Shown here: positions 32,852-39,550 of the stretch, in pieces
Position numbering within the stretch: position 1 is the first letter of the stretch
Layout: the number at the start of each line of letters is the position of its first letter
Source: Halobacillus amylolyticus
GTDB lineage: Bacteria; Bacillota; Bacilli; Bacillales; Halobacillaceae
Assembly (NCBI RefSeq): GCF_022921115.1
Contig: NZ_CP095075.1
Coordinates: 1 to 64,000, forward strand
Reading direction: 5' to 3'
DNA length: 64,000 bases
Notes under the pieces: model-generated
What the model was told of the DNA's origin: nothing
The model's database searches: none
Seen by the model: only the letters and a program-made list of their open reading frames with translations
Made by a program: the position numbers and the translations under genes

Positions 32852-33498
32852 CCCGGATTTTAATTGTTGACGATCATCCTGCTGTAGGTGCAGGGACGAA
32901 GGCTATGCTCGAACAGGAAGAAAATATGAAAGTAGATGTAACCGACAGAGCAAACGAAGTAGAAACTTTAATGAAGAAACAAGCTTATGACATCTTGCTC
33001 CTAGATTTATACATGCCTGGCATCAGTGGTGTGGACCTTGCTAAAACATTAAAAAAAGATGCCCCGGATTTGACCATTTTAATCTATACAGGGTTTGATT
33101 TAAATACACATTTTAATATGCTTGTTGAGGCAAATATAAACGGGTTCGTCAGTAAGACAGCGACAAGTGACCAGTTGGTTACATCGATACGTTGTGCGTT
33201 AAGAGATGAGGTCGTCATTCCACTTCACTTATTCAAACAGCTTAGAAGATCGGAGGCAAGTACCAACCAACCATCTGATAAGGAACAAGGGACAGGCCCT
33301 TCCTTAAATGAAAAGGAACAATCGATCCTTAAGGAAGTGGCATCAGGTTTGACTAACCGTGAAATAGCCCAGTCTTTGCATATGTCTCAACGCAGTGTTG
33401 AATACACACTAACAGGAATTTTTAATAAACTAGCAGTGAAATCGCGAACCGAAGCGTTATTTAAAGCACAAGAGCTTGGCCTTGTTTCAAAGTCATAA
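32848..33498 (+). CDS. ComA-like response regulator
   Basis: 216 residues. Receiver domain with DDHPAVGAGTKAML at the N-terminus, phosphoacceptor Asp in LLLDLYMPG (about residue 53) and Lys in SKTATSDQ; C-terminal LuxR/NarL helix-turn-helix (about 150-210, EKEQSILKEVASGLTNREIA and MSQRSVEYTLTGIFNKL). The ...SKRSIEYSLTSIFNKL motif of B. subtilis ComA is nearly reproduced. Partner of the kinase just upstream with ATGA overlap. Targets are not visible; ComA binds an inverted TTGCGG-type site in B. subtilis. Confidence 0.87.
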   Translation: MTRILIVDDHPAVGAGTKAMLEQEENMKVDVTDRANEVETLMKKQAYDILLLDLYMPGISGVDLAKTLKKDAPDLTILIYTGFDLNTHFNMLVEANINGFVSKTATSDQLVTSIRCALRDEVVIPLHLFKQLRRSEASTNQPSDKEQGTGPSLNEKEQSILKEVASGLTNREIAQSLHMSQRSVEYTLTGIFNKLAVKSRTEALFKAQELGLVSKS

Positions 33499-33592
33499 AC
33501 GGCCGGCACAGGGTCATGTTTTTCCACATAAGATGTAATGACTAAATAATTCCCCTCATGCACAGCTCTAGACAACAAGGAGGGGTACGCTT

Positions 33593-33784
33593 GTGAAGGA
33601 AGACGGCTACAGGCCAACACAAATTTTAACCAAGCGGGAGCGGGAAGTTTTCGAGCTTCTAGTGCAAGACAAAACAACAAAGGAAATTGCAAGTGAACTG
33701 TTCATTTCTGAGAAAACAGTTCGCAATCACATTTCCAATGCAATGAGTACCATTTGCGAACCGCAAGAAAGCCCGATGGGATAA
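33593..33784 (+). pseudogene. gerE: gerE truncated at the accessory-element junction
   Basis: GTG start behind AAGGAGGGG. Residues through ISEKTVRNHISNAM are essentially GerE, the small LuxR-type regulator that acts last in the mother cell (SigK stage) to control spore-coat genes. After that Met (DNA about 33748) the protein continues STICEPQESPMG and stops at 63 residues, whereas GerE is 74 residues with a final QKLGVKGRSQAVVELL...-type helix. The last helix, used in dimerisation, is missing, so function is doubtful. The breakpoint marks where chromosomal synteny (next gene expected: murI/racE) is replaced by mobile DNA. Confidence 0.85.
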
Positions 33785-33802
33785 GGTTTCCTAGTCGCGG
33801 CT

Positions 33803-33940
33803 TTATCTTTGTTTATTCAGCTTATATTGGATTTCATGCTCTTTTATTTGAGTCAGCCTTTTTTCGCATAGTTCCGAGGTGACCCTAAAATCTTTGGCCA
33901 GCGATCAATAATGTAAGTATCGCTTATATCTGATTACAGC
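33803..33940 (-). pseudogene. 3' fragment of an ImmA-like gene
   Basis: Read on the minus strand, this encodes LAKDFRVTSELCEKRLTQI followed by KEHEIQYKLNKQR and a stop, closely matching the C-terminus of the intact ImmA-like gene at 38323-38826 (AKDFRVTTELCRKRLQQI, then KERETQYRLNKQR). Preceding codons (DISDTYIIDRW) also align but are one base out of frame, so it is broken by a frameshift as well as truncated. The loss of similarity near 33940 coincides with the apparent left end of the IS21 remnant. It is a decayed paralogue, not a copy of the intact gene. Confidence 0.8.
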
Positions 33941-34930
33941 CAATGAAATGTACCAAACCCGCCATATTTTTACCACCAAGTGACAAAAAATGCACCATTA
34001 ACTGCCAAGCCTTTACCACTTTTCATACCTCTGTATAAATAATAAGCACACCTACGGGTGTGACATTATTTATATGGGAGGTATTTTTTGTATGATTCAT
34101 TATCAAAAGATATTGGAATTGTACGATGAGGGAATCAGTCTTAGAGTCATTGCCGCAAGCACGGGTAACTCTCGTCAAAAAGTAACAGAGGTCATTAGTC
34201 TGGCAGAAAAAGAAGGGATTAGTCTGTCCAATAGAGGAAGAAATGACGGATCAATGGATTGAGGAGTTTTTCTTTCCGGAAACACTGTGGAGGCTTCTGG
34301 ACGACGACCTTTGAACTTTGATTATATTCATGAAGAGTTAGCGAAGCCTAATGTGACGCTTTCTCTTCTCCATCATGGTTGCTTCCGCATACAATAATTG
34401 ACTGCACGGCAGTGTCGCAACGAAAACATACGCCTTTACTTTCTCCCCAGTATCTCTATCAATGACGAAAGATGCGGATCCTGCCCAATCGACTTCCATG
34501 ATTTCAGCCGGTTTTCTACGAATGCGTAAAGTGGCTATACCGATGGATTTGCATTCATGGATTAATGCACACAACCATGTATGATTATTTTGGTGGCACT
34601 ACACAAATTATAGTCATGCCTGCACGGGTTCGTACACCAAGGATAAAGCAAGTGTTGAAGCCTCTGCTAATGTTATCTCTACACATGGATCATCGCAGCT
34701 TTAAGAAATACACATTGCTTCAGTATCGATGAATTGAACGAAGAAGTTTGGAGGAAATTAGCCGAATTCAATTAGCGCCCTTTTACTCGCAAAAAAGGTA
34801 TTGTTTGTCGGCATCTGAAGACGAGAGGGGACCTAGAGAAACGAAGGATTACTATCACTGGGTTGGTTACAAAAACTGGTGCCCATTCCTTGAGGAACTA
34901 AAGGCAAAGCTTTTGGGTGTCTATGGCAAA
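33937..34930 (+). mobile_element. Degenerate, internally inverted IS21-family element
   Basis: Between the ImmA-like fragment and 34930 lies a wrecked IS21-type insertion sequence. The 5' part (33937-34050) carries short repeated ACC-type blocks (TTTACCACCAAG, TGCACCATTAACTGCC, TTTACCACTTTT), as expected for the multiple terminal repeats of IS21 elements. Then come istA fragments (see next entry). No istB (ATPase) gene and no convincing right terminal repeat are visible. A perfect hairpin CACACC-TACG-GGTGTG at 34050-34065 precedes the istA start. Confidence 0.75.
34092..34930 (+). pseudogene. istA transposase remnant with inverted middle segment
   Basis: ATG 34092 (SD GGGAGG) opens MIHYQKILELYDEGISLRVI, the IstA N-terminal helix-turn-helix, but the frame stops at 34262. 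Further degenerate plus-strand codons give YIHEELAKPNVTLSLLHH near 34330-34375. From about 34376 to 34560 the transposase sequence is on the minus strand: KPAEIMEVDWAG and IDRDTGEKVKAYVFVATLP, the catalytic-domain start with its Asp. From about 34560 the plus strand resumes (INAHNH, MYDYFGG, PARVRTP, then DELNEEVWRKLAEFN) with frameshifts and a stop. So a segment of about 185 bases has been inverted in place within a dead gene. Confidence 0.8.
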
Positions 34931-35230
34931 GGGACCTTTCCCTCATAGATGAACTGAGAGGGATATTTATGACGGTTCCAGAAAAATGATCATTGATTAC
35001 TTCGAAAACAATTCTAACTGATTGCAAAAGAAAGGTCCTAGTTTATCAAAAATATTAATCCGTAGGCAGATTTCATTCATTGGTAACCAACATTGGTGAA
35101 AAACATGTAAAGGGTGGTAAAATCTAGTGACCGTAATCACTGTTCGGGCTTGTTCCTTGTCTGTTACTATTTATCAAATTAAGATCATTTTATTTAAGTT
35201 AGTCCATTGCCATACTGGAATCCAATAAAA
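34931..35230. other. Non-coding stretch between IS remnant and the three-gene operon
   Basis: About 300 bases with no supported gene, RNA or strong hairpin. The right end of the IS21 element should lie in or before this stretch but I could not place it. Confidence 0.4.
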
Positions 35231-35252
35231 AAACCAGGCAATAATTGCCTAG
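35231..35252 (-). terminator. Terminator of the three-gene minus-strand operon
   Basis: On the minus strand CTAGGCAAT / ATTGCCTGG followed by TTTTTTT. It overlaps the TAG stop of the last gene. In plus coordinates the stem is CCAGGCAATAATTGCCTAG. Confidence 0.85.
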
Positions 35253-35896
35253 TTATCATTTGTTACAATAGATGAATCTTTAACCGTATTTATCTCTTCT
35301 AACATTAAATTAATTATTTTTTTTATAGAGTATTCATTTCTATATTCATTTAACAACCCCATTAGCTGATGTACGACTTTCACTTTCTTCCATATAAGTT
35401 TTTGCTCATCGTATTTAGCGTCACTTAAACTGTCAACGTGCGAATTATAAGCAGTAAAATTCAATGTAGTAAACGAAATTAAAACCGTTTCTTTTATTTC
35501 ATTATCTTCAGACAAGATTAACTTAACTAAAGCATCTTTATCCTCATCAATAAATGCTTCATAAACCTCTGAAATGTTCTTTAGGTTTTCCTTAAACTCA
35601 TTTTGGACCATTTCATACCTGGATTTTTCTCTTTCACTTACTTCTCTAGATTCTTCAGCATTTTTTAAGAAATGTAGAACGAATGCAACAAGTCCTGTAC
35701 AAATACTACCTATTAAAAAGAGGGATGACTTCATAACCCAGTCAACAAAGTCGTAGTTTTTTGAGTTAATCAAATATGTTTCAGCTGAAAAGGAGGTGAT
35801 TAACATAATGTTAACTATAAGTGTACCTAAGATGGTTCCAAGTAAGAAAAGAAATGCTACAGTAAAAAGAAAAGTCTTGTTAATGTGTTTAAGCAT
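35249..35896 (-). CDS. Two-TM membrane protein of unknown function, operon gene 3
   Basis: About 215 residues, not recognised. Two transmembrane helices near the N-terminus (about 8-32, FLFTVAFLFLLGTILGTLIV; about 57-77, SLFLIGSICTGLVAFVLHFL) separated by a short polar loop, then a long charged cytoplasmic helical region (about 80-215), starting with a coiled coil (EESREVSEREKSRYEMVQNE). ATG 35896 lies 4 bases after the stop of gene 2, implying translational coupling; a TTG at 35914 would give six more residues. Topology is that of many membrane effectors in abortive-infection systems, which is inference only. Last gene before the terminator. Confidence 0.75.
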   Translation of the reverse strand: MLKHINKTFLFTVAFLFLLGTILGTLIVNIMLITSFSAETYLINSKNYDFVDWVMKSSLFLIGSICTGLVAFVLHFLKNAEESREVSEREKSRYEMVQNEFKENLKNISEVYEAFIDEDKDALVKLILSEDNEIKETVLISFTTLNFTAYNSHVDSLSDAKYDEQKLIWKKVKVVHQLMGLLNEYRNEYSIKKIINLMLEEINTVKDSSIVTNDN

Positions 35897-35900
35897 TGAA

Positions 35901-36518
35901 TTAGGCAGTTCCAAGTTTTTGACGCAATCGATTTCTTAGGGCATCCAGTGATTCGTCCCTAACGATTTCTTTACCTTGTTCATCTTGGCCTTTGTTAAAT
36001 TCAAAAGCTCTTTTCAGGCTTAACTCAGAGTGCGAGTCAACTTCTTTCTCCTCCTTTGAAGAATTAGATTTGTAAGTAGGACTATCAAAGGAGGCGTGCG
36101 CCTTTAAATCCTTCATTGCCTCTTCATAAAAGATATCTTTTAACTTAAACAATAGTTTAACATCCGACAGAAATGAGGAGTTAGAAAGATCACCAGGTTT
36201 ATTGCATTCTTGACATTCAAAATTCATTAATTCATCTTCAGATTTTAAAATATTTAATTCGTCGCAATTGTCACATTCGTACTTATAGAGTTTAGAAAAT
36301 ATCCCATTCTTATCTGATAGAGATAGAAAAAAACTAACAGAACTATTTACATCAATTCCAAACATATGCGCAAATCTGAATGGACTAAAGAAAGTAGCTC
36401 CTAACCGAAGTTCTTGGGTAATAAAATGATTCATTCTAGGATAATAAGTTTCTAGAGGGAATTTGGATTCTAAAAACTTTTTTCTGCTATATATATTCTT
36501 TAATTCGGTGTAAAACAT
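35901..36518 (-). CDS. Zinc-ribbon protein of unknown function, operon gene 2
   Basis: 205 residues, not recognised. The N-terminal half looks like a winged-helix-type domain (FRFAHMFGIDVNSSVSFFLS...GIFSKLYKYEC) leading into a treble-clef or zinc-ribbon pair: CDNC at about 84-87 and CQEC at about 104-107. The C-terminal third is polar and probably disordered, with a short basic end (LDALRNRLRQKLG). The frame is open to 36575, but ATG 36518 after GGAAAGGAG is preferred; this overlaps the upstream gene by 32 bases. The tight coupling suggests the product works in a complex with its neighbours. Confidence 0.72.
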   Translation of the reverse strand: MFYTELKNIYSRKKFLESKFPLETYYPRMNHFITQELRLGATFFSPFRFAHMFGIDVNSSVSFFLSLSDKNGIFSKLYKYECDNCDELNILKSEDELMNFECQECNKPGDLSNSSFLSDVKLLFKLKDIFYEEAMKDLKAHASFDSPTYKSNSSKEEKEVDSHSELSLKRAFEFNKGQDEQGKEIVRDESLDALRNRLRQKLGTA

Positions 36519-37650
36519 ACTCTTCTTTAACTCTCCTTTCCTTAGCATTATAATAATGTATTTCAAGACACCCATATTTCTCTCTAATACTTACTTCGAC
36601 AAAAGAGAAGTCTTCACCTTCAGGAGTCTCATCAAAATCATTCTCATTGAATCTCCAATACATTGAAACTTCAGATACTTCCTCATACTCATGAATTAAA
36701 TCTTTTAGATTCCAATATAATTTCGTCTTATATATGGGGTCCTTATTAGAATTTCTAGTAGAAGATTTGGTGATTTGTCTATCAAAGAAGGTAAACCCAA
36801 ATATAAAACCTTCGTAAAACAAATGATCAGGTAAGTGCATTGCTCGATCCTGATAAAATGCTGCTGTTACCCTATCTACGTAATGTGAAGGGTTATGTAT
36901 TTCCAGATCATTTTCAAGAAACTCCATTATTTTTGTGTTTAGTTGAGTTTCTGTTAAACCTCCTAAGTTTGCCTTTATTACCTCTTCTGCATGTTGGGAC
37001 TCTTCACTGTAAAGTTGGTATAGTATGTCAGAATGTATAGTAGCTTCGTTGTATCTAGAGATACTTACATCTGCGTCCAAAGTGTTTAGGAAATGGCTAA
37101 GGTGAGTAAGGATTCCTTTTAAGTTAGTGTTAGCCCTACTTAGGTAATGTTTTCTAAGTTTAATTCTAACTGAATTTTTATCAAAGTCCAGAATTATAGG
37201 TGTATAAAAATTAGCCTTATCCTCAGTTTGACCCAGATAGACACTTTCATATTTATATAAAATTACTACACTGTTTCCATTTTGTCTAATAGATATCACT
37301 TTTTCATCACTAGCAATTGTCTGAGCTACTTTTCGGTTAAAGGCAGGCGAGTCTGAATAACGCTCCATTAATTCATCTTCATCGATGTCTGATTCTAAAT
37401 TTATTACGTAAGTATGATCTTGTTTATCAAATACTAATCTATTGAAAATAAACTCATCAAGATTAGAATCTTCATATCTTCCTTGTTCAATCTCTTGATT
37501 GACCAGATTCTGCATCTTTTGCCATCCATTATCCCCGGTGATTTCTTCATATTTTCTATTAAAGTCATGCATATCCACTCTTAAAAATGGTTTTAAATCA
37601 TGAGTGATCTCTAAGTTCCTTAGTAAAGTTGCAGTATAAGATTGTGGCAT
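36487..37650 (-). CDS. Large soluble protein of unknown function, operon gene 1
   Basis: 387 residues, not recognised and without a motif I can name. No signal peptide or TM helix. Mixed alpha/beta composition; acidic; aromatic-rich middle (HLPDHLFYEGFIFGFTFFDR at about 278-297). Start ATG 37650 is preceded by GGGAGGGCAATT, a strong SD; the upstream in-frame ATG at 37689 has none. First gene of a three-gene operon. Low GC and AT-rich codon use relative to the core genome fit horizontal acquisition. A sensor role is a guess from the operon layout (soluble protein plus zinc protein plus membrane protein). Confidence 0.72.
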   Translation of the reverse strand: MPQSYTATLLRNLEITHDLKPFLRVDMHDFNRKYEEITGDNGWQKMQNLVNQEIEQGRYEDSNLDEFIFNRLVFDKQDHTYVINLESDIDEDELMERYSDSPAFNRKVAQTIASDEKVISIRQNGNSVVILYKYESVYLGQTEDKANFYTPIILDFDKNSVRIKLRKHYLSRANTNLKGILTHLSHFLNTLDADVSISRYNEATIHSDILYQLYSEESQHAEEVIKANLGGLTETQLNTKIMEFLENDLEIHNPSHYVDRVTAAFYQDRAMHLPDHLFYEGFIFGFTFFDRQITKSSTRNSNKDPIYKTKLYWNLKDLIHEYEEVSEVSMYWRFNENDFDETPEGEDFSFVEVSIREKYGCLEIHYYNAKERRVKEEYVLHRIKEYI

Positions 37651-38322: not shown

Positions 38323-38826
38323 CTATCTTTGTTTATTTAACCTATATTGGGTTTCTCTTTCTTTAATTTGCTGAAGTCGTTTCCTGCATAACTCGGTTGT
38401 TACTCTAAAATCTTTTGCCCACTGATTTACTAGGTGCGGGTTGTTAATGTCGTATTGTGAAATCATATGGTAGGGAAGGGCTGCATAAAAAGTAAAATGT
38501 CTGGCATCTCGTTCTTGGAGTTTACGAAATGCATCAGTCATCATAGTTTGTTTGCCTACATGTCTAAGAACATGGCAGAACTCATGATAAAATTGCTCAC
38601 GTTGAACTTCTTTAGTACGTCTTGAATCAACTGTAATGGCACGGAACCTTCCAAACACTTCATAGTGTGGGGAAACAGGCTTACGGTGTAAAAAAGTTTC
38701 GTACTTCCGAGCGATGGTATAAGCCATGAGTTGTGAGGGTGTAGTTATATGTAACTTTAGATACCAATCTGAGACCCAATCCTCTAAATGGGTTGTTGTA
38801 TAAGTTGGAAAATACAAGATAAGCAC
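38323..38826 (-). CDS. ImmA/IrrE-family metallopeptidase
   Basis: 167 residues. Zinc protease signature QFYHEFCHVLRHVG (HExxH) at about 87-100. In ICEBs1 and related elements ImmA cleaves the neighbouring repressor ImmR after an SOS or cell-cell signal and so releases the element. It lies downstream of an ImmR-like XRE gene on the same strand, although 254 bases separate them. Start is uncertain: GTG 38826 is close behind AAGGA. Its C-terminal region is duplicated as a decayed fragment beside gerE. Confidence 0.83.
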   Translation of the reverse strand: MLILYFPTYTTTHLEDWVSDWYLKLHITTPSQLMAYTIARKYETFLHRKPVSPHYEVFGRFRAITVDSRRTKEVQREQFYHEFCHVLRHVGKQTMMTDAFRKLQERDARHFTFYAALPYHMISQYDINNPHLVNQWAKDFRVTTELCRKRLQQIKERETQYRLNKQR

Positions 38827-39080
38827 CGTCCTTGCTAATTATTATAAGAACAAATGTTCGATTTATCAATAAAAAAATAAAGCATATTTAATGCCTTATT
38901 AAGGTAACCCTATTGTATTTTCTATATGAGTATATTTATAATCTACTGTTAATAAACCTTTTTCCTAGAGTGCCTGCATTGATAAAGATCCTAGCCTTCA
39001 CAGATATACAAATAAGTGTTTACTTTACTGCTAGTGGGTAATTATTAGTTGCCGAGGCAGACGTTATTATTTTCTTCAGT

Positions 39081-39503
39081 TTAAATATCATCAACCTCTT
39101 TATGATCTTTACTCTTAAGATTTTTATCCCTACTCTTATTATATAAATAATCAAAATAATCCTCTAAACTACGAATATCTTCAGGAGACATCTCTTTCCA
39201 TTTTTCAATATCCCAAAAACCAGCATCCTCAACTCCGTATTTTATAAAGAGGTTATTCGTTTCCCTAATAGGATCAAAGTTACTGTGAGTATCGTTATAT
39301 TGATATTGCTCTTTTCCTAATAAATAATCAATTGAGCAGTTAAAGAAGTCAGAAATTTCCCTCAGTGTATTATAGTCAGGTTGACGATTGCCAGATTCAT
39401 ATTTTGAAATTGCTGAGTAAGATAATTCAAGTTTCTTTGCAAGGTCTTCTCTAGATAATTTCTTTTTCTTCCTCAAAAGCGTTAACCTTTTATGAAAATC
39501 CAT
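39081..39503 (-). CDS. ImmR-like XRE repressor
   Basis: 140 residues. N-terminal XRE helix-turn-helix (about 2-60, FHKRLTLLRKKKKLSREDLA then LSYSAISKYESGNRQPD), C-terminal region of unknown fold rich in acidic and aromatic residues. Start ATG 39503 behind GGAGGGTTGCCG; the TTG at 39509 is too close. Divergent from the small XRE gene at 39668, with GGAC/GTCC palindromes between them. Probable master repressor of the integrative element, with the ImmA-like protease as antirepressor. Confidence 0.85.
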   Translation of the reverse strand: MDFHKRLTLLRKKKKLSREDLAKKLELSYSAISKYESGNRQPDYNTLREISDFFNCSIDYLLGKEQYQYNDTHSNFDPIRETNNLFIKYGVEDAGFWDIEKWKEMSPEDIRSLEDYFDYLYNKSRDKNLKSKDHKEVDDI

Positions 39504-39550
39504 CGGCAACCCTCCGTTTTAGACATTATAATATAATTTAATTTTACCCT

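Follow-up and report, generated by a model that had tools for sequence, protein, structure and literature searches.

The first 64,000 nucleotides (nt) of contig NZ_CP095075.1 from Halobacillus amylolyticus (assembly GCF_022921115.1), which we call the window, contain three adjacent minus-strand genes that we refer to as the trio. Gene A (36487..37650, 387 amino acids) is a candidate DNA-binding sensor, gene B (35901..36518, 205 amino acids) is a candidate adaptor, and gene C (35249..35896, 215 amino acids), which is of the type that we call C1, is a candidate membrane effector. A first-pass annotation made from the sequence had described genes of these sizes on this strand, with A and B overlapping by 32 nt and B and C separated by 4 nt, and the coordinates confirm this. 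It also placed one terminator at the end of the trio. C does end in a terminator-like hairpin (35232..35254, minus strand), and 2 such hairpins occur in the region versus 1.7 expected by chance, so the call rests on the position of the hairpin. Searches of Pfam, NCBIfam, PHROGs, and PADLOC gave no credible family for any of the three proteins, which the first-pass annotation had not recognised either; no known housekeeping or transfer family was matched. We treated weak matches for the trio proteins with E values of 0.02-1 (Hemocyanin_N, INTS5_N, FtsX, InaC, and similar) as noise. We found no description of such a trio among the open-access papers searched, which include few preprints.

On mobile DNA, the three genes are found together repeatedly, as a unit. 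When genome, contig, and plasmid searches are pooled, a true A is present at 18 distinct loci: the window, L009-L013, L017, L023, L025-L028, L031, L039-L042, and a decayed plasmid copy, L004. The whole-genome searches with A used overlapping draws, to which contig and plasmid scans were added. They gave matches in 3 of 44 genomes from the family (including the genome itself and one false match), 7 of 397 from the order (including the genome itself and the same false match), 3 of 398 from the class (including the genome itself), and 5 of 344 from a second order. We rejected a match in G036, which is a 552-residue open reading frame (ORF) at a locus with no significant match to B or C, and which we take to encode a DAK-type protein. 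Repeats (L016, L018, L019, L029, and L030, which equal L011, L012, L013, L028, and L026, respectively) were not counted, and L024, whose A is identical to that of L023 from the same genome, was counted with it as one locus. The named hosts are Priestia taiwanensis, Evansella tamaricis, Litchfieldia salsa, Bacillus solitudinis, and Priestia megaterium.

B follows A at all 18 loci, with B split in L004 and A split in L042. A third membrane gene comes next at 17 of them; at L031, the sequence ends first. If B starts at its conserved first methionine, then the A/B overlap is 32-53 nt at all 18 loci measured (the window, 16 of the 17 others, and the distant trio L079, with L004 left out). The start of B in L040 was set by hand: its overlap is 38 nt as printed, 41 nt from an internal methionine, and 74 nt from the first possible start. 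L079, from genome G065, was found with the B profile and has the same gene order. Its A' protein aligns to A over 355 columns in hhalign (E = 5.6e-5, at a probability of only 66), and HMMER gives no alignment, so by sequence it is a probable distant trio and lies outside the 18 that we counted. Because the same genes occur in the same order at other loci, the trio is more than a chance arrangement.

These copies occupy varied sites: what looks like an integrative and conjugative element (ICE), a plasmid, the vicinity of restriction genes, other islands, and two distinct positions in prophages. The plasmid collection yielded only the decayed P. megaterium copy, and a single-sequence scan of genome contigs found no trio match. 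Viral contigs matched neither the query P0001 nor the B alignment. Three A queries had no match in 50,697 GenBank phage records, so A is not a common phage gene.

A was described as soluble and acidic, and it does have a pI of 5.05 and no transmembrane (TM) window. Structure prediction gives an N-terminal helical bundle (residues ~7-74) and two TBP-like beta-sheet domains, so A is predicted to be a tandem TBP-fold protein with an architecture like that of RdgC or CENP-L/CENP-N. The structures of CENP-N and CENP-L are reported to resemble RdgC and TBP (PMC4080450). For CENP-L and CENP-N, the likeness of A is one of predicted architecture. From RdgC, A differs in that no sequence similarity is detectable: there is no Pfam RdgC match, and the hhalign score of 18.1 is not significant, being below the maximum of 23.5 for shuffled columns (n = 60). 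On these grounds we rejected A as a member of the RdgC family by sequence. The A profile also has no credible relative among PDB sequences, where the best match for any of the profiles searched (A, B, and the C2 type described below) was mitochondrial uS9m at 0.0077. A is also unlike RdgC and CENP-L/CENP-N in sharing an operon with a membrane protein.

The first-pass description of B, a zinc ribbon after a winged-helix-like part, has held up as well. In the window the motif is C82xxC85...C102xxC105, and the four cysteines are invariant in all 12 aligned B proteins (in 8 of which the first pair is spaced as CxxxxC). The predicted structure is a winged helix with the CxxC...CxxC zinc ribbon at its wing, a low-confidence linker, and a C-terminal helix. 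B has no credible relative among PDB sequences by profile search, but its profile matches DUF5939 (hhalign E = 3.3e-10 over 106 columns), and this profile comparison indicates that the DUF5939 module is a homologous winged-helix/zinc-ribbon region. The window's B by itself (P0002) has no DUF5939 match in Pfam. The distant B' of L079 scores 0.002, which is under the Pfam cut-off, and L080 scores 3.5e-22. DUF5939 occurs in class III adenylate/guanylate cyclases, and B differs from these in being free-standing, without the cyclase domain. For example, L080-L085 are class III cyclase-like ORFs of ~610 amino acids that share this module with B and whose N-terminus, by eye, is SRPBCC-like; among these, the Pfam scan covered L080 only. 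When we searched the same 397 genomes of the order with the B profile, 14 matched: the 6 trio genomes already found with A, G065, 6 genomes with cyclases, and G101, whose match (2.1e-4) we rejected by eye as unrelated. Matches of Cas12 zinc-ribbon models to L009's B (0.025) were treated as noise. The name DUF5939 is absent from the open-access literature that we searched.

The window's C has two TM windows (~5-36 and ~55-77), as the first-pass annotation had it, and a long soluble tail. It (P0003) has no SLATT match in Pfam or PADLOC, and judged by its sequence it is not a SLATT protein. Type C1 is found at 13 trio loci. For L013 and L004, which P0003 alone missed, C1 was first assigned by position and by inspection, and the proteins were then entered into the profile. 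The remaining four loci (L023, L027, L028, and L041) have type C2 instead, with proteins of 152-169 amino acids that are unrelated to C1 (hhalign E = 0.089 between the profiles, over only 26 columns). All four C2 proteins match PADLOC models for SLATT or two-transmembrane (2TM) effectors. Specifically, the E values for L041, L023, L027, and L028 are 9.2e-7, 6.9e-5, 0.0015, and 0.014 for RTasSLATT, and 0.00044, 6.2e-6, 0.00061, and 0.0029 for 2TM Effector. In Pfam, the best match to the SLATT and DUF4231 families is 1.7e-4 and the weakest best matches are 0.022-0.025; these fall under the curated cut-offs (DUF4231 at 22.4 versus 24.7 bits for L041, and SLATT_5 at 20.4 versus 29.5 bits for L023). 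The C2 profile has no credible relative among PDB sequences. According to a preprint (PMC12632851), SLATT proteins are predicted to form pores, and DRT10 defence requires one of them.

In a tree of 16 A proteins, the C2 copies are nested among C1 copies, so that two label changes are needed, and C2 forms a single clade in 0 of 200 bootstrap trees. The well-supported branches alone are compatible with a single origin of C2. We take the exchange of C1 for a SLATT/2TM-type protein as the strongest sign that the third slot holds an effector. Together with the predicted DNA-binding folds of A and B, it strengthens the first-pass reading of the trio as a sensor, an adaptor, and a membrane effector, in which the functions themselves are putative. 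Outside the trio, a search with the C1 profile matched 30 genomes, of which 7 are trio genomes (including G065). Seven of the other 23 (G422, G165, G281, G134, G338, G399, and G333) were inspected and have solo 2TM proteins or unrelated ones, such as the TetR-like protein of L088, which we did not use. L090 (8023-10122) encodes two adjoining solo C1-like 2TM proteins of 253 and 247 amino acids, with no A or B seen alongside.

The exchange also bears on the idea that the trio is a DNA-membrane tether or partition device, in which A and B bind the element's DNA and C anchors it to the membrane so that the excised or replicating element is kept. It is hard to see why such a device would replace its anchor with a SLATT-type protein. 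Also, Pfam finds no ParA-like ATPase in the trio, and most copies are in integrated elements. We consider this idea very improbable. An addiction module similar to a toxin-antitoxin system, with C as a membrane toxin that is held by A and B and retains the mobile element, would suit the mobile setting, the tight operon, and the membrane protein. But the trio lacks a small antitoxin, its three proteins all being sizeable, with a DNA-binding architecture predicted, and decayed copies persist (L004 and L042), so we think that addiction is improbable too.

How the trio is controlled raises another alternative. Seven loci (L023, L027, L028, and L039-L042) are from the other order searched, which we suspect to be Paenibacillales, or were grouped with it by the A tree, which lacks L042. 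In six of the seven, the 150 nt upstream of A contain a LexA-like box whose core has no more than one mismatch; five of these six boxes are 80-98 nt upstream, with TTG after. First-order resamples have a mean of 0.195 such loci, and none of 1,000 reach six. None of the 12 other upstream regions, including those of L079 and L004, has the box. The grouping was made after a first look, and as a background, such a box occurs in 71 of the 454 tiles, each of 300 nt, from these seven loci.

The boxes would be expected if the trio were an SOS-induced helper of phage or ICE development, with A acting on recombination intermediates as RdgC does and with B and C tuning induction, replication, or lysis. 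RdgC counters RecA, and the predicted fold of A is RdgC-like. The neighbours fit as well. A cell-wall hydrolase gene lies within ~2 kb at 6 of 18 loci (L017, L023, L028, L039, L040, and L041), and XRE, M78, or recombinase genes adjoin the trio at 6 of 18: HTH and M78 genes just upstream in the window, L025, and L031 (with the HTH genes of the latter two called by eye), M78 and recombinase genes after C in L012 and L013, and an HTH_3 gene before A in L026. On the other hand, the trio occupies a wide range of sites, A is not a common phage gene, and swapping C for a SLATT-type protein is what one typically sees in conflict systems. So we view this alternative as unlikely.

Still, the development helper is the most serious rival because SOS control and prophage positions fit it too. 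Of the checks that the first-pass annotation set, recurrence as a unit came out in its favour; as to a place in defence islands, restriction-modification genes were seen near L009 only (N6 methylase, HsdM, and Mrr-type genes), with the surroundings of the other loci inspected by eye or scanned in part. On balance, we lean slightly towards the view that the trio is a defence module borne by mobile elements, acting in superinfection exclusion or abortive infection.

Other features of these loci deserve mention. G685 has two trio copies, on contigs C1 and C3 (L023 and L024), with equal scores and sizes and the same prophage-like setting; in L024, a trypsin-like gene (Trypsin_2) is right after C2, on the opposite strand. 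On the P. megaterium plasmid, genes for a YolD-like protein and a Y-family polymerase (L004, 5576-7187) are just upstream of the decayed trio, and by eye one or the other of these also seems to accompany the trio in L017, L024, L028, and L042. In the window, the trio stands beside regulators and opposite transfer genes, as had been noted. Upstream of A on the minus strand are genes for an M78 (ImmA/IrrE) peptidase (38323..38826) and an XRE/HTH_3 repressor (39081..39509), while the plus strand encodes a type IV secretion system coupling protein, a pLS20_p028-like protein, a VirB4-like ATPase, and a MobP2 relaxase. Given these transfer genes, the element looks like an ICE, and the M78 protein is probably its induction protease. 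A LexA-like sequence, AGAACAAATGTTCG (38847-38860), is ~22 nt upstream of the M78 start. It could put the protease under SOS control, and its position alone is suggestive; the 64-kb window has two perfect LexA-like cores, which is near the chance level. No exact direct repeat of at least 16 nt that might mark the ends of the ICE was found between 33301-35300 and 56001-100000. The "dead" insertion sequence beside the trio is a reading by eye. Beyond the window, ~63.5-97 kb of the contig (G000:C1; L043 and L044) has genes that by eye resemble those for metal P-type ATPases, for two-component regulators, and for a transposase, which are possibly cargo of the ICE.

Among known defence systems, DRT10 (a UG17 reverse transcriptase, a noncoding RNA, and a SLATT protein) is alike in coupling a nucleic-acid-handling side to a SLATT membrane protein. 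The SLATT gene is needed for defence there (PMC12632851), and RTasSLATT is among the models that C2 matches. The trio differs in that the family scans matched no reverse transcriptase, and the window's trio has C1 rather than SLATT. The cyclic-oligonucleotide-based antiphage signaling systems (CBASS) with 2TM or SLATT effectors have a similar type of membrane protein. But general family scans of A, B, and C matched no CD-NTase-like nucleotidyltransferase, so as far as sequence can tell, the trio is not CBASS. Immune operons such as CBASS, Pycsar, BREX, and DISARM are reported to be linked to DNA damage through CapH+CapP and CapW (PMC13373217). The HTH and M78 genes upstream of the trio in the window, L025, and L031 resemble this arrangement, and L025's M78 protein has a match to capP in PADLOC (2.6e-9), but the XRE/M78 pair may instead be the element's own ImmR/ImmA. 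We file the trio as a variant of the membrane-effector abortive systems, outside any named system.

From what was computed (the conserved trio, the overlap, the third-gene exchange, the enrichment of LexA-like boxes, and the mobile setting) and from the predicted folds of A and B, we infer that the trio senses DNA, passes a signal, damages the membrane, is controlled by these regulators, and defends against phages, in roughly the following way. In a quiet lysogen or ICE host, the trio would be repressed. A LexA-like operator would keep expression low and tied to DNA damage in copies from the other order, and an XRE repressor and M78 protease would do so in several copies from the window's order. 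Upon DNA damage or infection, expression would rise. A would bind or encircle DNA and sense a structure that appears under these conditions, B, with its winged helix, zinc ribbon, and overlapping frame, would couple A to the third protein, and C (or its SLATT/2TM-type replacement) would act on the membrane and halt or kill the cell before it can produce the invader. The more specific proposal, that this is an undescribed immune module carried by mobile elements of these Bacilli, with a DNA-clamp sensor of the RdgC/CENP-L/CENP-N type (including CENP-N-like N-terminal helices), a winged-helix/zinc-ribbon adaptor, and an exchangeable membrane effector, draws on modelled folds, and we regard it as possible but rather doubtful.

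If it is true, then prophages and an ICE would carry a new multi-gene immune module in which a clamp-type DNA sensor drives an exchangeable membrane effector, and abortive infection would be linked to SOS control and to recombination-type DNA recognition. It would give the uncharacterised DUF5939 module a role and would add a new type of sensor for nucleic-acid-gated membrane immunity. A would also offer a bacterial counterpart to the CENP-L/N-RdgC fold that can be put to the test, and may be a bacterial relative of a kinetochore component.
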